32,133 nt of DNA from IMG/VR virus record IMGVR_UViG_3300042559_001063, positions 1-32,133 of that record. One strand, given 5' to 3'. Below, piece by piece: positions 381 through 28,575 of the stretch (its first letter is position 1; every line of letters begins with the position of its first letter). Source of the DNA: a virus. The notes beneath the pieces were generated by a model. It made no database searches. It was given only the letters and a program-made list of their open reading frames with translations, and was not told the origin of the DNA. The translations under genes were made by a program, and so were the position numbers.

Positions 381-1083
381 TAGATTGATTCTTTCGATAT
401 TTGGAAACAAGGAACTCGAGCGTATCTGGAATATGCTTGAAGAATCGAAGTCCTTCTTTACCATTCATTGCAAATGCTTCTTCACGAGTGACATGTCGCC
501 ACTCATCAAACGTCTTGGTCTGACAATCAATACTTATATGTTCGTCCATGATGGTTATGTCATACGTGAAGCCAGTGAGCACGATGGGTTTCTGAGTCGT
601 CTTACGAGTGATGTTGGCATATCCATCAATTACAAAATCGCCATACACCCAGGCGTCATCATGCACCTTAGAGTGACCTAGGATTTCAATCTTGCCGAAT
701 ACTTGAGCATTTCCATATACCGATGAAATACCATCAATAATAGCTTCATCATACACTAACGCGTTTTGAAAAATGTTTGTTTGACCAGTGACAAGAGCAT
801 CATCTGATATCTTTGCGTTGTCGTATACATTCGCTTGATCTTTTACTCTTGCATTTCGGTCGACTTTTGCTTTATCATATACGAGCGCGCTATCATATAT
901 CCAGCAATCACCTTCATGCGAAAGGTTAGCTTCGTTTTCAACGAACCCGCCGATATCTCCAGCGCTTACATCTGCAAAATCTCGAAGTGCTTGAACCGCG
1001 TATAGTTTTCTTTGGCCAACTCGAATGTCGATATCACGATTGAGTTTGTACTTAGGTTGATGCATCATCCACTTTAATTTCAT
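373..1083 (-). CDS. hexapeptide-repeat (left-handed beta-helix) protein
   Basis: This is a 236-residue protein. After a short lead comes 'LYAVQALRDFADVSAGDIGGFVENEANLSHEG', the typical opening of phage and bacterial hexapeptide-repeat proteins. About nine rungs follow (residues ~60-150) with the i, i+6 pattern 'A.VYDNA.I..DALV', which predicts a left-handed parallel beta-helix. The C-terminal ~80 residues do not repeat. No acyltransferase catalytic histidine is obvious, so a structural or scaffold role is as likely as an enzyme. The ATG at 1081-1083 overlaps the Acb1 gene by 32 bp. ATGs at residues 6 and 7 are alternative starts and none has a strong Shine-Dalgarno. Function unknown. Confidence 0.75.
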   Translation of the reverse strand: MKLKWMMHQPKYKLNRDIDIRVGQRKLYAVQALRDFADVSAGDIGGFVENEANLSHEGDCWIYDSALVYDKAKVDRNARVKDQANVYDNAKISDDALVTGQTNIFQNALVYDEAIIDGISSVYGNAQVFGKIEILGHSKVHDDAWVYGDFVIDGYANITRKTTQKPIVLTGFTYDITIMDEHISIDCQTKTFDEWRHVTREEAFAMNGKEGLRFFKHIPDTLEFLVSKYRKNQSNV

Positions 1084-1543
1084 TAAACGTTAATTCAAAC
1101 GTTGGGAGTTTCACTTTTTTCATATCAGGTAAGTCTTTCGAATACGAAACAGACACGTGTGGTTTGTATTCTGGCCAAGCATCTTTCATATCATACACGT
1201 CTGCATAGTGGTTACGAAGACGAGCAATCATTGGAGACTCGATCTTCAAAACCGGTATGTCATTATTAACCCCAAGCATCATAATGTCAACTACTTTTGC
1301 TGTGCCAGAAGGAGCAATTGCTTTTATATGATTCGGTAAGTCGTGTTTTGACGTAGTAAAGAATATTGTTGTATGGAAGTCAAAGTCTTCTTCGTCCTGC
1401 TTTGTACCATCGTATTTTGCAGTAAGATCAAAGCCATTTTCTTTTGCCCAAGCACGAAGTTTGCGTTGTGTAGCCGCATCGTATTGAACAGCTACATACT
1501 TTTCTGTAGGTGCTTTTTCCATAAAATCCTTAAATTTAATCAT
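1052..1543 (-). CDS. acb1: Acb1-type anti-CBASS cyclic oligonucleotide phosphodiesterase
   Basis: This 163-residue protein resembles T4 gp57B (Acb1), a 2H-type phosphoesterase that cleaves the cyclic di- and trinucleotide signals of CBASS so that its effectors stay inactive. Two H-x-T/S signatures are visible: H57-T-T59 in 'DFHTTIFF' and H129-V-S131 in 'KPHVSVSY'. Length and spacing (72 residues between the histidines) fit the family, and the N-terminus 'MIKFKDFME' is T4-57B-like. The protein would act in the host cytoplasm early in infection. Its ATG overlaps the tail fibre stop by 8 bp, with AGGAAAA upstream acting as ribosome binding site. The position downstream of a tail gene is unusual for an early counter-defence function. 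Assignment rests on motifs, not a search. Confidence 0.8.
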   Translation of the reverse strand: MIKFKDFMEKAPTEKYVAVQYDAATQRKLRAWAKENGFDLTAKYDGTKQDEEDFDFHTTIFFTTSKHDLPNHIKAIAPSGTAKVVDIMMLGVNNDIPVLKIESPMIARLRNHYADVYDMKDAWPEYKPHVSVSYSKDLPDMKKVKLPTFELTFNEIKVDDAST

Positions 1544-3539
1544 AATAAGTTTTTCCTGATTTTACTTCATCGAGTTCATTCTTTAGTTCTATGATTGCTT
1601 CTATTAACAACGGAACTAATCTTTCATATCTAACCGTTAAATATTTCTCGTCGATTGGAGCAGGAGCAACAACCTCGGGCATAATACGCTGGACTTCTTG
1701 AGCAGAGACACCGACCTCACGTTTAACTTCGTATCCTAAAGCTTGTGCTGTTTCATTCGCTTCATAATAAAACCCAGACAGCGTCATAACCTTATCGAGC
1801 GCGTTCTCAATATATCCAAGCTTATTTTTTAACCTATCGTCTGAGTAATACGCTGTAATGTTATTTGTCGCTCGAATTTCTCCAGAAACACTTGATGCTG
1901 CAGTGCCTACACCTAGACTATTTACCTGATAATCGTTTATAGTGTTTAAGGCGTTTGCTGTAGTTGCAGTTGTAGCTGTAGTTGCGGTTGTAGCACTCGT
2001 CGCTGTTGCAGCATTGCCACTAATAGAAATTGCCCAAGTGCCAGAGGCTCCTGTCCCAGTGAGTGTTGGCGCATACGAGTTATAATTTAAGCTATCTAGA
2101 TTCAATCTCCAAGCATACCAAGTACCATTATAATATGCTCGAGAGTATATTTGACCGCTATTGTACACTGTATATCTTTGATATACCATAACACCGTCAG
2201 CTAGAACTTCTAGCATGCCCGCTGCAGCAACAGGATAATTTGTGCCACTGCTAGCATTCGCATTTGTGTTTTGGTGATAAAATCCTACAGCAGTATATGT
2301 GTTTAAGTCGACTGATCCACCGATGTCGGCACCTTTTGTAAAGGTATCTGTTGCCGGAGCTTTTGAGTTTAATTGTGTTTGAATATTTGATGTTACGCCG
2401 TCAGAATAATTTAATTCAGTTACGGTCGCAGTAAGTCCGGATAAGGTACTGACTGACGATGCAGTTGTAGCACTCGTAGCTGTTGCAGCATTGCCATTGA
2501 TGGAAATATTCCAAGTACCTGAAGCTCCTGCGCCAGTTTTAGAAGGAGCGTCATTAGCAATTTCAGCATTTACAAATTCTGTTGTAGCTATTTGTGTATT
2601 ACTTGTTCCCACAGATGCTGTTGGAGCAGTAGGTACACCAGTAAATACGGGTGACGCAAGAGGAGATTTTGAATTTAACTGCGTCTGAATACTTGATGTT
2701 ACACCATTTGCATAATTTAATTCAGTTACGGTCGCAGTAAGTCCAGATAAGGTACTAACGGTTGTAGCAGTGTTCGCGTTGCCATTGATGGAAATATTCC
2801 AAGTACCTGAAGCTCCAGTACCAGTTTTAGAGGGAGCATCGTTGGCGATCTCGGCATTTACAAATGCAGTTGTAGCTATTTGTGTGGTGTTTGTTCCAAC
2901 TGCTGCTGTTGGAGCAGCAGGAGTACCTGTAAATGTAGGAGATGCAAGAGGTGATTTTGAATTTAGTTGTGTTTGAATACTCGATGTTACACCATTTGCA
3001 TAATTTAATTCCGCAATTGTTGCGGTTAAGTTGGTTAGTGTTATTGCTGTATCTGCGCTTGAAGCGTTTGTGGCTGTTGACGCGTTACCAATAAGATTTG
3101 CAGTAATAGTATTTGCTGCAAAGTTACGAGATGCATCTCTTACTACAACCTTGCCAGCAGTTGATGCGTCTGTAGCATCAACCGCCCATGTAGTAGCTGT
3201 ACCACCATTAAAATTTGAACCAGTTAAGTAACTTCCACGAGTAAGTGTTTGTGTAGTATTTGCTGTAAGAGTAATGTTAACTGAACCGTTAAAGGAAACA
3301 CCATTGATAGTTCGTGCATTTAAAAATTGAGATGTAGTTGTAGAATTTCCTACTATATTTGCAGTAATAGTATTTGCAGTAAAATTACCAGATGAATCGC
3401 GAACAACAACTGTACTATTGTTTGCAACTTGAATATTATCAATTGCATATGCAAGTTTATAAAAATTATCATCTAGTTCTGCAAATGTTAAAGCAGAACC
3501 CTTTTCATTTCTATAAAGAATATCGTCAACAGTTGACAT
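1536..3539 (-). CDS. tail fibre protein with pyocin-knob and S74 chaperone domains
   Basis: This 667-residue trimeric fibre subunit is probably a host-receptor-binding or side fibre. Residues 1-30 ('DILYRNEKGSALTFAELDDNF') are the usual attachment segment of T4-like fibres. Residues ~171-395 hold three copies of a ~100-residue module beginning 'LTATVTELNYANGV' and ending 'ISINGNAATAT'. Residues ~410-490 look like a pyocin-knob domain (GFY, NYP, YNGTWYAW). Residues ~564-667 form an intramolecular chaperone of peptidase S74 type, with S566-D-D-R-L-K571 marking the expected self-cleavage point just before Ser566. A C-terminal coiled coil (LIEAIIELKNELDEVK) would be released with the chaperone. 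Its ATG shares one base with the stop of the 117-aa gene (TAATG). Confidence 0.9.
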   Translation of the reverse strand: MSTVDDILYRNEKGSALTFAELDDNFYKLAYAIDNIQVANNSTVVVRDSSGNFTANTITANIVGNSTTTSQFLNARTINGVSFNGSVNITLTANTTQTLTRGSYLTGSNFNGGTATTWAVDATDASTAGKVVVRDASRNFAANTITANLIGNASTATNASSADTAITLTNLTATIAELNYANGVTSSIQTQLNSKSPLASPTFTGTPAAPTAAVGTNTTQIATTAFVNAEIANDAPSKTGTGASGTWNISINGNANTATTVSTLSGLTATVTELNYANGVTSSIQTQLNSKSPLASPVFTGVPTAPTASVGTSNTQIATTEFVNAEIANDAPSKTGAGASGTWNISINGNAATATSATTASSVSTLSGLTATVTELNYSDGVTSNIQTQLNSKAPATDTFTKGADIGGSVDLNTYTAVGFYHQNTNANASSGTNYPVAAAGMLEVLADGVMVYQRYTVYNSGQIYSRAYYNGTWYAWRLNLDSLNYNSYAPTLTGTGASGTWAISISGNAATATSATTATTATTATTANALNTINDYQVNSLGVGTAASSVSGEIRATNNITAYYSDDRLKNKLGYIENALDKVMTLSGFYYEANETAQALGYEVKREVGVSAQEVQRIMPEVVAPAPIDEKYLTVRYERLVPLLIEAIIELKNELDEVKSGKTYYD
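2350..3029 (-). repeat. three tandem ~290-300 bp modules in the tail fibre gene
   Basis: Protein modules start at residues 171, 267 and 369 of the fibre, 96 and 102 residues apart. The third is truncated after 'QTQLNSKAP'. DNA identity is high: the stretches around 2491-2560 and 2776-2850 are nearly the same. Such modules are recombination targets that change fibre length. Confidence 0.85.
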
Positions 3540-3892
3540 TAGGTAATATCTCCATTTGGGCCGTAATACTTCCCTACGTATGAAACATAGGTATTACTAG
3601 AATAACCCGGGTTATTCTCTATATATCCTGATTTGACATAATCAAAAATAGTTTTTTCGGCATCACTTAATAATTCTACAAACAAATAAATTTGAGCTGC
3701 TAGCGCAGTCCTTATAGATGTATTAGCTTCTCTTGTTTGTAATTGTAAAAGAGTTTCATAATCAGGATTGCCTTCTCTCAATACGTCTAAATCATTAATA
3801 AGAGCAAGTTTATTTTCAGGTAGATTGGTAGTATTGTACTCATCTACAAGCATTTGTACTGCTGTTTCGTATGTGTAATTCGGTATATTCAT
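3539..3892 (-). CDS. unknown protein between PAAR and tail fibre
   Basis: This 117-residue, acidic, mostly helical protein is rich in Asn and Tyr, starts 'MNIPNYTYETAVQMLVDEYN', and carries no motif I recognise. It sits between the PAAR gene (ATGA overlap) and the tail fibre gene (TAATG overlap). That tight coupling suggests a role in baseplate or fibre assembly, for example as a fibre-attachment or chaperone protein. This is inference from position only. Confidence 0.7.
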   Translation of the reverse strand: MNIPNYTYETAVQMLVDEYNTTNLPENKLALINDLDVLREGNPDYETLLQLQTREANTSIRTALAAQIYLFVELLSDAEKTIFDYVKSGYIENNPGYSSNTYVSYVGKYYGPNGDIT

Positions 3893-4197
3893 CCAACAAA
3901 CACACTCGCTGAAGCTTCTCCGGCAGCATTTGGAAACCAGTCTTTACCACAACTATCAGTACCGTGTCCACCTGTAGCATCTCCAAGTCTGTGAACAGCT
4001 ATACCATTAAAGAAAACTGTTCCAGATCCTGCAACAGCAGGATCACCACATGCGGTTGTATCTCCTACAACAATAGCAAGTTCACCATTAATATACACAC
4101 TTGTATTTAGTCCTGATACATATGCGGTTTGATGAAAAGGATCACACGGCGAGGCATGCCCGATATGTTTATCACCGTTACGAACTACTGCCGGCAT
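3889..4197 (-). CDS. PAAR-repeat spike tip protein
   Basis: A 102-residue PAAR protein. This family forms the sharpened cone that caps the central spike of contractile tails (T4 gp5.4 is the T4 member) and helps pierce the outer membrane. Family features visible are the 'MPAVVRNGDKHIGHASPCDPF' opening, the 'VYINGELAIVVGDTTACGDP' strand set, 'GSGTVFFNGIAVHRLGD', and His/Cys residues (H11, H14, C18, C50, H74, C83) that may bind the tip metal. Genes on both sides overlap it, and the fibre gene lies two genes downstream, consistent with a tail cluster. Confidence 0.9.
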   Translation of the reverse strand: MPAVVRNGDKHIGHASPCDPFHQTAYVSGLNTSVYINGELAIVVGDTTACGDPAVAGSGTVFFNGIAVHRLGDATGGHGTDSCGKDWFPNAAGEASASVFVG

Positions 4198-4357
4198 CTT
4201 CTTTCTTCCTTATGACTGCCATGTTACCCATGATTTCCCATTCAAGAAGAGTTTGATCGTCCCAGCCCATTTGTTTCATAAGCGCAGCATTAAACTCAAT
4301 GTAAGGCTCGCCGTACTCATCTTCTTTTACTGTCGATACACCAATAATATCTGCCAT
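4178..4357 (-). CDS. 59-aa AbrB/SpoVT-like small protein
   Basis: This short reading frame between PhoH and PAAR begins 'MADIIGVSTVKEDEYGEPYIEF' in two parts and ends 'KKEDAGSSS'. The segment with LMKQMGWDDQ, TLLEWEIMG and AVIRKK follows the pattern of AbrB/SpoVT swapped-hairpin domains (a short helix, 'lGw..gd.l.w', a turn, 'l.kk'), so it may bind DNA. The family match is tentative. It starts two bases after the PhoH stop and overlaps PAAR by 20 bp. The ATG sits inside the TATAAATA late-promoter-like box, so transcripts starting there would skip it. Position and phage-like composition support a real gene. Confidence 0.7.
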   Translation of the reverse strand: MADIIGVSTVKEDEYGEPYIEFNAALMKQMGWDDQTLLEWEIMGNMAVIRKKEDAGSSS

Positions 4358-4364
4358 ATTTATA
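4357..4364 (-). promoter_or_regulatory. candidate T4-type late promoter box TATAAATA
   Basis: The minus strand reads TATAAATA exactly, the -10 element of T4 late promoters, which need no -35. A start about six bases further on would fall inside the 59-aa gene and give transcripts for PAAR, the 117-aa protein and the tail fibre. No TTGACA promoter serves this tail block. An eight-base AT-rich match is weak evidence alone. Confidence 0.35.
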
Positions 4365-5106
4365 GTCCGAGTCGATCACGTTCAATGATATAAGACTTGA
4401 CCAACTTTGATCTCACAATGTCTTCTACTTGGAAGTCGACAAATTCAAACTCTTTCATACGTTCAATGATTTTCATGAAGTCGCGAAGACCCGAAAGTTC
4501 CTTCTTACGCTCTGAAGTAAGATCGTCTTGTTTTACGTCACCACAAAAGATGATTCTGCAATTTTCACCAACACGAGTCATAACGGTATGAAGTTCACCG
4601 TCTCCCATATTCTGAACTTCGTCGACGAGAAGAATACAATCATCAAACGTCTCACCACGAAGATATGATGTAGTAATAAAATCTACATAACCTTTGCCCT
4701 TAAGCACTTCATACGCATCGCCTCTACCAAATAACTTAGTCGCAATAGGAACATATGGAGCTTCAAAGACTTTTGCTTTATCCTTCAATGACCCTGGTAA
4801 GAATCCCTGATCACGAGTTGATACCGTTGAACGAACAATATAGACTTTCTTATACGGCGAATTTGCCTTAAGTACTTCTTTGAGTGCAAAGTGCAGGCCA
4901 AGAAATGTTTTTCCTGTGCCAGCGATACCATGAAGCATCATATTATACCCATCATCCCAACGATCAAACGCTAGCCTTTGATTATCAGTCATTGGGGATA
5001 TATCAGACTTCATGACAAACATCTTTGTCTCGCCTGATTCAACTGTTCCGTCTTGCTTTAAGATTCTTTTTTGCCGCTTTGTTAGTCTTTGTTGTTGTAG
5101 AGGCAT
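4360..5106 (-). CDS. phoH: PhoH-like P-loop ATPase
   Basis: This 248-residue PhoH-family ATPase is common in marine and T4-like phages. Its phage role is not settled; RNA helicase-like or nuclease-associated functions have been proposed. Walker A is G60-I-A-G-T-G-K-T67, and Walker B is 'ILLVDE' at ~159-164, followed by 'VQNM'. 'VYIVRSTV', 'GFLPGSLKDK' and 'RIIFCGD' further on are family hallmarks. The first ~35 residues are basic. AAGGA lies before the ATG at 5104-5106. It follows the 77-aa gene by 14 bp and precedes the 59-aa gene by 2 bp. Confidence 0.93.
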   Translation of the reverse strand: MPLQQQRLTKRQKRILKQDGTVESGETKMFVMKSDISPMTDNQRLAFDRWDDGYNMMLHGIAGTGKTFLGLHFALKEVLKANSPYKKVYIVRSTVSTRDQGFLPGSLKDKAKVFEAPYVPIATKLFGRGDAYEVLKGKGYVDFITTSYLRGETFDDCILLVDEVQNMGDGELHTVMTRVGENCRIIFCGDVKQDDLTSERKKELSGLRDFMKIIERMKEFEFVDFQVEDIVRSKLVKSYIIERDRLGL

Positions 5107-6713: not shown

Positions 6714-7568
6714 TCAGAACTCATTCAAGGACTCCGTGAGCAGTTTAAGACGATTTTTGATAAAGTAGTTGAGAAGCTGCGAACGATCTTTCGTATTTTC
6801 TTTGTTATACTCTTCAAGAATACGCTCTTTAAGGTGAGCAGGAACTTGAGAAAGATCAATGAGGGATTGATTTCGAGCATAGTTTCGCTTAACTTCTGAA
6901 CTCATTTTATTTATATCGATCCACTCTTCCAGCCTTTTCTTAGTGACTGGCTTCTGACGAGTGCCTACAACAAACGAGTTGTCAGCTGACAGGATGTTAG
7001 GGATACCGTCACCAGCATCACCTTTCATGATGTGTTCGTACAAATACTGCTCAGGGTTAGAGTGAGTAACCCACTTCTTCATCACGGGGTTGTACTGTTT
7101 AATATTAGCATACTTGTGAAGTTGAATGTAGTCTTTATCACCGGAGAGAATAAGGAACTTCTCGCCAGCGTTAAGTTCACGACCTTCTTGATGGATAATG
7201 GTACCAATGATGTCGTCAGCTTCACATGCGTCGATTTGAATTACTTTGTATGGGAAAATGGTTTTAAGCTCTTCGCGGATTTTGTTGAGAGCATTAAAGA
7301 TCGAAGTCCAATCGAGTTCAGACTCCTCACGACTCTTACGACGAGATGCTTTGTAGTAAGGAAATTGTGTACGACGCCAGTAGTTTTTGTCGTCGGCACA
7401 GATGATAAGCTCGCCAAATTCTTCTTTGAACTTCATACGATTAAAGCGGATAGAGTTGAGAACCATATGACGAATCATATTCTCATCTACTTCTGCGTTG
7501 TGGTGATTGCCAATCTGCATCATGAGATTGGCAATCATAACTTGGTTAAGATCGACCAAAACGGCCAT
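6714..7568 (-). CDS. rnh: T4 RNase H-type 5' nuclease (FEN family)
   Basis: A 284-residue flap/5'-3' exonuclease of the T4 RNase H family, which removes RNA primers from Okazaki fragments. Metal-binding acidic residues are in place: D6, D59/D60 in 'IICADD', E116-A-D-D119, D144 and D146 in 'LSGDKDY', and D184/D187 in 'MKGDAGDGIPN' (the H3TH entry). It would work with the phage polymerase and the DNA ligase at 21563-22687. AGGAG precedes the ATG, and a promoter lies directly upstream at 7596-7623. Length is slightly below T4 RNase H (305 aa). Confidence 0.93.
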   Translation of the reverse strand: MAVLVDLNQVMIANLMMQIGNHHNAEVDENMIRHMVLNSIRFNRMKFKEEFGELIICADDKNYWRRTQFPYYKASRRKSREESELDWTSIFNALNKIREELKTIFPYKVIQIDACEADDIIGTIIHQEGRELNAGEKFLILSGDKDYIQLHKYANIKQYNPVMKKWVTHSNPEQYLYEHIMKGDAGDGIPNILSADNSFVVGTRQKPVTKKRLEEWIDINKMSSEVKRNYARNQSLIDLSQVPAHLKERILEEYNKENTKDRSQLLNYFIKNRLKLLTESLNEF

Positions 7569-25906: not shown

Positions 25907-26026
25907 TCAATTTAGTTTCAGCCGTTCACAAACTTCGAGTTGTTTGTTCAACTGGTTACGAAGGTCGTTAGCCTTCCATACTGCAGCCATCCATTCTACG
26001 TATTCTTTCGAGCGAGTATCAAGCAT
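25907..26026 (-). CDS. 39-aa unknown helical protein
   Basis: Reads 'MLDTRSKEYVEWMAAVWKAN' then 'DLRNQLNKQLEVCERLKLN', an amphipathic helix. Its ATG overlaps the stop of the nicotinamide phosphoribosyltransferase (TAATG), and GGAAGG lies upstream. It may be an accessory of that enzyme; no family recognised. Confidence 0.55.
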   Translation of the reverse strand: MLDTRSKEYVEWMAAVWKANDLRNQLNKQLEVCERLKLN

Positions 26027-27453
26027 TACACACCTTCCTTTGCACGTTCGCGAATAGTAGCAAAGTCGTCTTCAATCAAAATAGTACCATTGTGGTACAC
26101 TTTACGAAGCAAGTTCTTTGCAGCGAACTCCCAGACGTAGTCTTCTGGCACCGTGCGAATGAAAGGATTTACACCAAAGCCAGCTTCTTTAACCAAAGCA
26201 AGACGGCCTTCTTTCGAACGCTTGCCGCGGTCAGTAACCGGGTCTTTTGAGAATCCTCTCCACTCACCATCGGCGCCTTTGATTGCCGAAGCCTTCATAG
26301 CATACTTCAAAGAATCGCGGTTCCAAGCCTGCAGAAGACCACCACCCATACCAAACGCAATGTTGTCGGCAGAGATGTTTTTCGCGATCATGTTTTCCAG
26401 AATAATGGGCAACGATTTCTCGTTAATACCATCACCCTGAATGACTCGGATGTACGGAGGAAGAACCTTAAAGCCTTTGCTGTTCACGGTATAACCAAAC
26501 TTCTCCATCAAGATCTCGATGACTTCAACTGGAACAGTCTCAGGATCACCAGAGTCTGGGCGTACCACCAAGGTGCCACCCGAAGCAATGATCTTATCTT
26601 TGAGAGAAGTACCCCAAAGATCAGCCACCGCTTTGTAGATGTCGAAGCTGTCAGATACACATGCGTATAGTTTACCTTCACCTGCGAACTGATTGATCAT
26701 GTTGTCGTAAGCTTTTACTTCGTCTTCTCGACCCCAAGATGTGATCGTTGAGTGTTCAGAAGCAGGAATCGAGAAACCTACAACCTCATCGGTGTTGTAG
26801 TATTCCATAACACCAACAAGAGCTTCAGCAGTGTCAGTTCCCATGAAGTTCACAAGGTGTGCCATACCGCCAAGTACTGCAGTCTCACTCGAAGAAGCAC
26901 CACGAGCACCAAAGTCATGCAACTTGAAGTTGATCTGAGCTTCTACTGGAACGTCAGACGTTTTCAAGAGAGCTGCTTTGATGATCTTCTTCATCTTACG
27001 TGACTTAGTTGCCACAGTCGAAGGGTACCAGACACCACGCAGAAGCGCAGTCTCGAGGTATGAAGTCAGCCACCACAGCCGAGGATCGGTGTTTACCACC
27101 TGCACCTGAACGTTGTGAGTAGGCATAACCGTGCCTTCAGGAACAGCTTCAATCTCTACAGGAAGCATACCGTCGTATTCATTAACGATAACTTCCCAAC
27201 CCTCACGGTTGAACGGTAGGCCGTGGGCAGTCACGATCTTTTCAGCACGGTCGACATCCTTCATAGTGATAGGAGTCGTCATGTAGTCTTTCATGAAAGC
27301 CTGAAGACCAAAGAAGACCGATTCATCTTCACCACCACGAGACTCAATGTACGAAGATACATGAGTCGTGCCGGCTGGATACTGCACCCACTGTGAGAAC
27401 TTGTAACTGTCGGTACGAAGGATAGCAGAGATTAGATTTAGTACGTTTTTCAT
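26026..27453 (-). CDS. natV: nicotinamide phosphoribosyltransferase
   Basis: A 475-residue NAMPT enzyme making NMN from nicotinamide and PRPP, the first step of NAD+ salvage. The N-terminus 'ILRTDSYKFSQWVQYPAGTTHVSSYIESR' is the NAMPT hallmark; H234 in 'IPASEHSTI' corresponds to the catalytic histidine; 'LVVRPDSGDP' binds the phosphate; 'GDGINEKSL' and 'NIAFGMGGGLLQ' line the site. Length agrees with the family (~490 aa). The gene follows the adenylyltransferase-Nudix gene after a 62-bp gap holding a hairpin, so the pair makes NAD+ in two steps, as in phage KVP40 and the NARP2 anti-defence pathway. Confidence 0.95.
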   Translation of the reverse strand: MKNVLNLISAILRTDSYKFSQWVQYPAGTTHVSSYIESRGGEDESVFFGLQAFMKDYMTTPITMKDVDRAEKIVTAHGLPFNREGWEVIVNEYDGMLPVEIEAVPEGTVMPTHNVQVQVVNTDPRLWWLTSYLETALLRGVWYPSTVATKSRKMKKIIKAALLKTSDVPVEAQINFKLHDFGARGASSSETAVLGGMAHLVNFMGTDTAEALVGVMEYYNTDEVVGFSIPASEHSTITSWGREDEVKAYDNMINQFAGEGKLYACVSDSFDIYKAVADLWGTSLKDKIIASGGTLVVRPDSGDPETVPVEVIEILMEKFGYTVNSKGFKVLPPYIRVIQGDGINEKSLPIILENMIAKNISADNIAFGMGGGLLQAWNRDSLKYAMKASAIKGADGEWRGFSKDPVTDRGKRSKEGRLALVKEAGFGVNPFIRTVPEDYVWEFAAKNLLRKVYHNGTILIEDDFATIRERAKEGV

Positions 27454-27515: not shown

Positions 27516-28529
27516 TTAACCAATATTGATAAAGTTGTCGATGATATGGAAGTGATCCTCGAACATCTTTTCTTGTTTGACTTTGTTGAAAGGAACCCAG
27601 AATGCTTTCTCAGCATCATCAGCACCTTTCACTTTCGGTAGTTCACCAACACCAAGATCGAGAAAGAATGCTTGAGTGATAGTTCTGCCCCGTGACGAAC
27701 GGTTCGGTGCGTCAAAAGTCTTAGACTCCTTGATAGAACCTTTCAGAACAGGCACTGGGACCTTGATCTTAGTCTCTTCCTTGAGCTCACGGATAGCACC
27801 ATCAAGCATTGTTTCGTCTTGATTAAGGAAACCACCAGGTAGTGCCCAAAGACCTTTACCAGGCATATCGCCACGTTTGACAAGCAGAATGTGCCCAGAT
27901 TGAATAACAACAGCGTCAACAGTCATGAATGTCGGAGGGAAAGGTGCAACCTTCCACGCTTCCTTGTACTTCTTGACCATCTGGTATTCGTTGTACAGGG
28001 TATCCCAGTAGCCACCGATCTTTCCACCTACGATGATGACTTTATTCATTGCATCCCGTGCAGCGTCAGGCATATTGTCCAGTGCAGCAAAGTCGCAGTT
28101 ACCGAACAAGCAGTTACGGATGTCAGTAGCATTGATACCATCAACATCTGCAACTTCAACATGATCCTTCCAACGTGGAAAGATATTCAAGTAGTATGAA
28201 GTGTTATCTTTGGAGTGACCGATTAACCCTACATCTTTTGCATAAGGAACAGTTTCGTCAACAATCTTCTGGATTGCATTGACCCACTTGTTATCATCAT
28301 ACGGATAATCAGAGACAGGAACAACTTTGACACGATCGGTTGGAAACACCGCTTCGATCATTGCTTTTCGTTCTTGGAATGTAAAGGGATTTCGAATATT
28401 GCGAGCAGCGAAACTGGAACCGACGACTACGACGACTTCCTTGGCTTGCTCAAGCGCAGCTTCGATAACTGCTTTGTGTCCATTGTGAAACGGTTGGAAC
28501 CTACCGATAAAAACGAGTGCGTCTCGCAT
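27516..28529 (-). CDS. nadM: bifunctional NMN adenylyltransferase-Nudix hydrolase
   Basis: A 337-residue fusion. Residues 1-165 are a NadM-type nucleotidyltransferase: 'FIGRFQPFHNGH' (H-x-G-H at 15-18) binds ATP, and 'DGINATDIRN' (131-139) is the ISxxxIR motif; it turns NMN into NAD+. Residues ~200-337 are a Nudix domain with the full box at 232-253 (G..PGGF...E..REL.EET), typically an ADP-ribose pyrophosphatase in this fusion (as in Synechocystis slr0787). AAGGAG lies before the ATG at 28527-28529. The transcript starts close to a hairpin at 28553-28575. Confidence 0.93.
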   Translation of the reverse strand: MRDALVFIGRFQPFHNGHKAVIEAALEQAKEVVVVVGSSFAARNIRNPFTFQERKAMIEAVFPTDRVKVVPVSDYPYDDNKWVNAIQKIVDETVPYAKDVGLIGHSKDNTSYYLNIFPRWKDHVEVADVDGINATDIRNCLFGNCDFAALDNMPDAARDAMNKVIIVGGKIGGYWDTLYNEYQMVKKYKEAWKVAPFPPTFMTVDAVVIQSGHILLVKRGDMPGKGLWALPGGFLNQDETMLDGAIRELKEETKIKVPVPVLKGSIKESKTFDAPNRSSRGRTITQAFFLDLGVGELPKVKGADDAEKAFWVPFNKVKQEKMFEDHFHIIDNFINIG

Positions 28530-28552
28530 GCAAAAACTCCTTTTGCTATTTT

Positions 28553-28575
28553 GTAGGAGCCTCACTGGCTCCTAC
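28553..28575 (-). other. 5'-leader hairpin of the NAD operon
   Basis: Minus strand GTAGGAGCC, loop AGTGA, GGCTCCTAC; nine paired bases. It begins about 6-8 bases after the -10 box, so it would be the very 5' end of the transcript. Such hairpins can protect an mRNA from 5' decay. Confidence 0.6.

Follow-up and report, generated by a model that had tools for sequence, protein, structure and literature searches.

A capsid-targeting-like N-terminal peptide on a predicted Acb1-type anti-CBASS enzyme of the T4 superfamily

Introduction

Phage countermeasures against CBASS are usually thought of as proteins made after phage entry. The closest described example is Acb1, a 2H phosphodiesterase known from phage T4 (gp57B) and Erwinia phage FBB1 (PDB 7T26 and 7T27). 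During T4 infection, cleavage of the signal starts at about 15 min, coinciding with the late onset of CBASS (PMC9117128), and Hobbs et al. describe nine further Acb1 homologues that are active on 3'3'-cGAMP and cAAA. T4 also carries the internal proteins IPI, IPII and IPIII, which are injected anti-restriction, and in that sense anti-defence, proteins (PMC12373910) bearing an N-terminal capsid targeting sequence (CTS) of ten residues with aromatic or hydrophobic residues at positions 4 and 7. For the IPIII tag, a review of T4 head work describes residues 4 and 7 as the chief determinants of targeting and residues 8 and 10 as those of processing, and an aspartate at position 10 inhibited processing while still allowing targeting (PMC9026906). 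Acb1 and capsid targeting sequences are each already known; what is new here is the joining of both, and among the open-access papers searched we found none linking Acb1 with capsid targeting.

Here we describe a virus record of 32,133 bases, itself a fragment (hereafter the window), which carries a gene for a predicted Acb1-type protein. Like T4 and FBB1 Acb1, this protein has a predicted 2H fold, two HxT/S motifs and an above-cut-off match to the Acb1 family, and its gene lies beside a tail-assembly gene and is probably expressed late. Unlike them, it has a diverged C-terminal lid and a better-developed N-terminal tag, and its gene stands in a phoH–PAAR order interrupted by an inserted fibre cassette. 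The tag shares with the CTS of IPI–III its N-terminal position, ten-residue length and residues 4 and 7, but the window protein would be an enzyme rather than a small restriction-enzyme inhibitor and lacks the E10 of the protease site.

Results

The acb1 gene occupies positions 1052–1543 on the minus strand and encodes 163 amino acids from an ATG start. Both 2H motifs named in an earlier note on this DNA are present, H57-T58-T59 (1367–1375, minus strand) and H129-V130-S131 (1151–1159, minus strand), corresponding to the two HxT/S motifs of the Acb1 family. Across an alignment of 16 sequences (the window protein, 14 relatives and T4), H57, T59 and H129 are unchanged throughout, while position 131 is serine but threonine in T4. 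The ratio dN/dS was 0.045–0.125 between the window gene and four relatives, indicating purifying selection. The earlier note had likened both length and start to those of T4 57B. The length differs by 11 residues, 163 against 152 in T4, and the window protein has extra residues ahead of the first motif; the remark on the start was the most useful part of the observation.

Searches of sequence families and predicted structure both point to Acb1. The window protein matched the Pfam family PF23474 (Acb1) at 43.7 bits, above the curated cut-off of 27, and all 16 aligned members matched the same family with E-values of 0.1 or better. A phmmer search against PDB sequences returned a sole, weak match, which was Acb1 7t26 (E = 0.087). 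Using an AlphaFold model of the protein (mean pLDDT 87.7, pTM 0.81, alignment of 12 sequences), Foldseek ranked the Acb1 structures 7t26 and 7t27 as the first two matches (rank 1 E = 4.2e-08), and VIA-align gave them Z-scores of 14.2 and 14.0. The second-closest fold was the Burkholderia phage BCSR5 phosphodiesterase (PDB 9Q2Y/9Q2G; Z = 12.9), likewise a phage 2H enzyme, with a lid and at an identity of 16–17%, for which a literature search returned no paper. Arabidopsis cyclic phosphodiesterase (Z = 10.7) and LigT (9.3–9.8) scored lower.

It is very unlikely that the gene encodes a LigT-like RNA 2',3'-cyclic phosphodiesterase or 2'-5' ligase, serving RNA repair rather than anti-CBASS activity. 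Such enzymes share the 2H superfamily with Acb1, and the window protein does match both PF13563 (2'-5' RNA ligase, a LigT relative) and PHROG 755, which is labelled RNA ligase. However, the PF13563 match lies under its cut-off (23.4 versus 27 bits), T4 57B carries the same PHROG label, PF23474 is matched above cut-off and by every aligned member, and Acb1 structures are ahead of every LigT-type entry by 3.5 Z units. Neither of the outcomes that the earlier note had named as refuting was seen, as the protein keeps both motifs and its predicted fold is closer to Acb1 than to the RNA phosphodiesterases, and the identity suggested there, an Acb1-type 2H phosphodiesterase, is supported by family and modelled fold alike. 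By analogy with the activities of T4 and FBB1 Acb1, the window enzyme probably cleaves CBASS signals. A PADLOC search gave no match, and matches to Nif11 and Lsr2 in Pfam, NCBIfam and PHROGs, which were weak or under cut-off, were set aside.

Ligand-contact residues of Acb1 include Y12, W74, F107, E141 and W147 (T4 numbering), which are described as base-stacking or contacting adenine (PMC9117128). In a MAFFT alignment, the columns of Y12 and F107 stay aromatic in the window protein (Y16 and W123), and W74, E141 and W147 have no clear counterparts, with the lid beyond residue 137 left unaligned by hhalign. Given these three positions, the substrates of the window enzyme may differ from those of T4 Acb1, and its range should not be assumed.

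Acb1 proteins of this lineage start with a separable peptide, typically M-x-x-F-x-x-F. Most of the 43 N-termini that we examined extend about 8–15 residues before the first strand, and six have no tag. Residues 1–10 of the window model have a mean pLDDT of 52 and the fold core starts near residue 13; the solved FBB1 Acb1 starts from G8. From 27 of the 43 N-termini, and with no T4 sequence, we trained a profile of residues 2–10, leaving out near-duplicates (L035, L049, L051, L053 and L055), uncertain or shifted starts (L056, L058, L070, L073 and L075) and proteins with no tag (L020, L040, L059, L063, L064 and L065). All 27 training tags have F or L at position 4 and 24 have F or Y at position 7, with M1 kept; a prohead-protease site at positions 8 and 10 occurs in strict form in 7/27 and in loose form in 15/27. 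The conserved positions 4 and 7 are the same ones on which IPIII targeting is reported mainly to depend. In the window protein the tag spans codons 1–10 (MIKFKDFMEK; 1514–1543, minus strand) and scores 17.8 bits, compared with −1.7 bits for the next-best ORF, leaving no second tagged ORF in the window. F4 and F7 are present, as are hydrophobic residues 4 and 7 in the T4-type CTS, and trimming of the protein is doubtful because the tag reads F7-M8-E9-K10, without E10.

We then applied the profile to 262 T4 ORFs, called by a simple longest-first script without annotated starts, revealing gp61.1 (21.8 bits), IPI (19.2), IPIII (8.3), IPII (8.3) and 57B (6.7) at ranks 1 to 5, with the next ORF at 4.9 bits. 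Scores above 5 bits were reached by five T4 N-termini; in 300 rounds of shuffling this number was 0.56 on average and never higher than 3. Alt, a packaged T4 protein, ranked 92nd of 262. IPI–III stayed within the T4 top 10 in 200 of 200 random halves of the training set, and they ranked 2 (IPI), 5 (IPIII) and 6 (IPII) when 11 excluded N-termini were restored (the six untagged ones plus L053, L056, L058, L070 and L073); training without any MKT- start likewise gave IP ranks of 2, 5 and 6. A profile limited to the window's clade (five sequences, effectively 1.1) placed IPI 4th, IPIII 75th and IPII 76th. Control profiles made from phoH, PAAR, p661 and the YdcK-like gene ranked every IP 42nd or worse, and the p661 control also placed T4 57B third. 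Among seven further T4-type Acb1s, the tag is degenerate or absent in most.

T4 gene 61.1 (18966–19130 in L096), whose product starts MKTFKEFIKE and has the top T4 score, is by its N-terminus a candidate for an injected protein. In Salmonella phage S16, the ORF annotated as an internal head protein (L137, 1638–1949) shares sequence with the end of acb1, and its likely true start, MKTYQEFINEA, falls within the ORF as annotated.

The tag is also found beyond Acb1. We surveyed 1,537 ORFs of at least 60 amino acids from the genomes of four relatives (G001–G004), phiM7 and T4, selecting by residues 2–7, a procedure whose length limit excludes T4 gp61.1 and whose cut lies above IPII and IPIII. This revealed 25 non-Acb1 ORFs resembling the tag, among which only two homologous pairs were found once the tag was removed. 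A hydrophobic residue at position 8 combined with E10 was present in 11 of the 25, compared with 29 of 1,508 other ORFs (Fisher p = 3e-12). Genomes of all five relatives encode a gp21-type protease (PF03420) as well as a portal and a major head protein of the T4 type, and in four of the five an ORF with a tag start lies between portal and protease (phiM7 9.0, G002 9.1, G003 13.2 and G004 7.5 bits), the interval that in T4 holds the prohead core genes 67 and 68. The G003 ORF adjoins the portal but is about 8 kb from the protease, and the ORFs of G002 and G004, though above 5 bits, fall under the survey's residue 2–7 cut. In G001, the closest long relative, the ORF in this interval scores only 0.6 bits. 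Judged from these sequences, the tag has the appearance of a peptide that directs several proteins to the prohead core.

Tagged ORFs, mostly unrelated to one another, also form clusters at 109–118 kb and 129–133 kb in G002 and at 14–20 kb in G004 (L115, L116, L125 and L126), and one of them resembles a polynucleotide kinase. The position of these clusters far from head genes, and the kinase-like protein within them, would suit a docking tag with another role, directed for example at the nucleoid, the membrane or a replication complex instead of the capsid. We consider this quite unlikely, as the prohead is indicated by the link to T4 inner proteins, by the enrichment of the protease site and by the tagged ORF in the portal–protease interval. 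Delivery on a tail spike through the PAAR neighbour was dropped by judgement: we saw no likeness to a PAAR extension, and the tag resembles the T4 head-targeting peptide.

Next to acb1 on the minus strand, a downstream gene for a YdcK-like beta-solenoid protein (373–1083) overlaps its 3' end by 32 bp; a YdcK-like gene follows acb1 in several relatives too. The upstream genes, all on the same strand, encode a tail fibre protein of 667 amino acids with a C-terminal S74 chaperone domain (1536–3539), a 117-residue protein with no family match (3539–3892), a PAAR protein (3889–4197), a 59-residue protein assigned to phrog_661 (4178–4357) and phoH (4360–5106). As the earlier note had observed, the fibre ORF overlaps acb1 by 8 bp (1536–1543). 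In an IMG/VR scan comprising 63 related loci, some of them on near-identical contigs, this overlap recurs in five, two of which have an Acb1 identical to that of the window. The usual immediate upstream neighbour is PAAR, which directly precedes acb1 (gap of at most 60 bp) with phoH beyond it in 38/63 loci; in eight it lies more distantly upstream, with a tail fibre gene between in five and another insert in three. Three loci have phoH upstream without PAAR, which in L059 and L061 comes after acb1, and 14 have neither gene in the available stretch, several of these being contig ends or distant homologues. In phiM7 the order is phoH, homing endonuclease, PAAR and acb1. Because PAAR and acb1 are adjacent in most relatives, the 117-residue ORF and the fibre gene represent a local cassette between them. 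When the window (3539–4197) is compared with L005, L003, L009 and L032, the PAAR/acb1 site is seen either to hold one of several cassettes, such as the 117-residue ORF with the fibre gene or a set of different ORFs, or to be empty, and the junction is likely an exchange hotspot for host-recognition genes.

According to the earlier note, acb1 lies elsewhere in T4. This statement is misleading, and the link to tail genes is not peculiar to the window: T4 57B overlaps the tail-fibre chaperone gene 57A by 4 bp, ending the run 4-2-3-1-57A-57B, and in seven of seven further T4-type acb1 records a 57A-type gene is directly upstream, overlapping in six. With 57A upstream in T4-type records and PAAR in most of the relatives, linkage to a tail gene is therefore usual for acb1. 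On its other side, T4 57B adjoins ipI, the gene of an injected protein.

A match to the T4 late-promoter motif, TATAAATA, is found at the phoH/p661 junction (4364–4357, minus strand), upstream of PAAR, fibre and acb1 and 2.8 kb from the last of these, and a scan of 900–4600 turned up no terminator-like site. Gene order, the motif match and the lack of terminator-like sites make late co-transcription of acb1 with the PAAR and tail-fibre genes likely, in keeping with the tail-linked timing that the earlier note had expected, which is plausible. The 195-kb genome of G001 has 36 copies of the motif on its main coding strand against 5 on the opposite strand, compared with 11 and 2 for the reversed motif. 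For 24 of the 36 copies an ORF start follows within 100 nt, against a random mean of 4.1 and a highest value of 11 in 500 trials. The reversed control is also found near starts (7/11 within 100 nt, five overlapping true motif sites), so AT-rich intergenic gaps explain part of this enrichment.

In an initial set of loci, L001–L005, L009 and L015 carry the junction motif and L006, L007 and L010–L014 lack it. It is instead located directly after the upstream nucleotidase gene in L006, L010 and L014; L011 and L012 have one upstream of phoH as well, the nearest in L007 is in rnh, and L013 has none. Another copy lies within the 3' part of rnh in the window (6908–6915, minus strand) and is kept in the relatives compared (L003, L005, L006, L007 and L010) despite nearby synonymous differences; it is perhaps a late promoter within a gene.

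Early expression from an internal promoter directly upstream of acb1 appears unlikely. Two weak sigma-70-like matches on the minus strand (9/12, near 3414–3463, within the fibre gene) could be read in its favour, but such sites at 900–4600 are at chance level (10 versus 11.6 in shuffled sequences), and the best of them (11/12, 1290–1262) lies inside acb1, from where only downstream genes could be driven. The earlier note had regarded tail-linked timing as late for a protein that must stop CBASS early, barring an internal promoter. Cleavage in T4 at about 15 min matches a late CBASS onset (PMC9117128), and a late Acb1 is thus no paradox. The main text of a T4 time course (PMC9697503) names neither 57B nor Acb1.

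Discussion

The N-terminal tag would offer a second way around lateness, in which protein made late could be packaged and act when the following infection begins. In the explanation that we favour, with a probability of roughly 60%, acb1 is transcribed late, together with the PAAR and tail-fibre genes, and its first ten residues act as a capsid-targeting-like peptide whose F4 and F7 would draw the late-made enzyme into the prohead core, where a gp21-type protease would perhaps trim it. Stored with the DNA and injected, Acb1 would already be in the cell when the next infection begins, and as a 2H phosphodiesterase it would open cyclic oligonucleotide alarm signals and so blunt CBASS. Packaging and injection are here read from the tag. 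For the wider proposal, that Acb1 is an injected capsid-internal enzyme across a broad group of the T4 superfamily and belongs to a larger, mostly unrecognised set of tag-marked proteins, we judge the odds to be slightly better than even.

It is possible, though we lean against it, that the protein is an ordinary Acb1, made late and acting in the infected cell as that of T4 does, with the peptide an unpackaged spacer or relic. In T4 the activity sets in some 15 min into infection, as expected of a newly made protein and in step with late CBASS onset (PMC9117128), the N-termini of T4-type Acb1s are mostly degenerate, and the tag is missing from 6 of the 43 N-termini of relatives, so the enzyme can do without it. 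A spacer or relic would sit poorly, however, with the retention of residues 4 and 7 in diverged relatives, their coincidence with the T4 targeting residues and the occurrence of the same peptide, with its protease site, on otherwise unrelated ORFs.

If the packaged and injected enzyme is borne out, a signal-destroying protein made in the previous host would arrive with the DNA and destroy CBASS signals from the first moments, leaving no race against the alarm. Cyclic-nucleotide defence would be disarmed from the start, much as IPI–III disarm restriction enzymes, so that an injected anti-CBASS enzyme would follow a familiar mode of attack while bringing a cargo of a new type. The tag profile could also provide a simple predictor of injected proteins in the T4 superfamily, including gp61.1 and proteins of unknown function.

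The window contains one further pair of genes related to defence. On the minus strand, positions 26026–27453 encode a nicotinamide phosphoribosyltransferase and positions 27516–28565 an adjacent nucleotidyltransferase/Nudix protein. NAD+ salvage pairs are known to counter NAD-depleting defences, and these two genes likely form such a pair.
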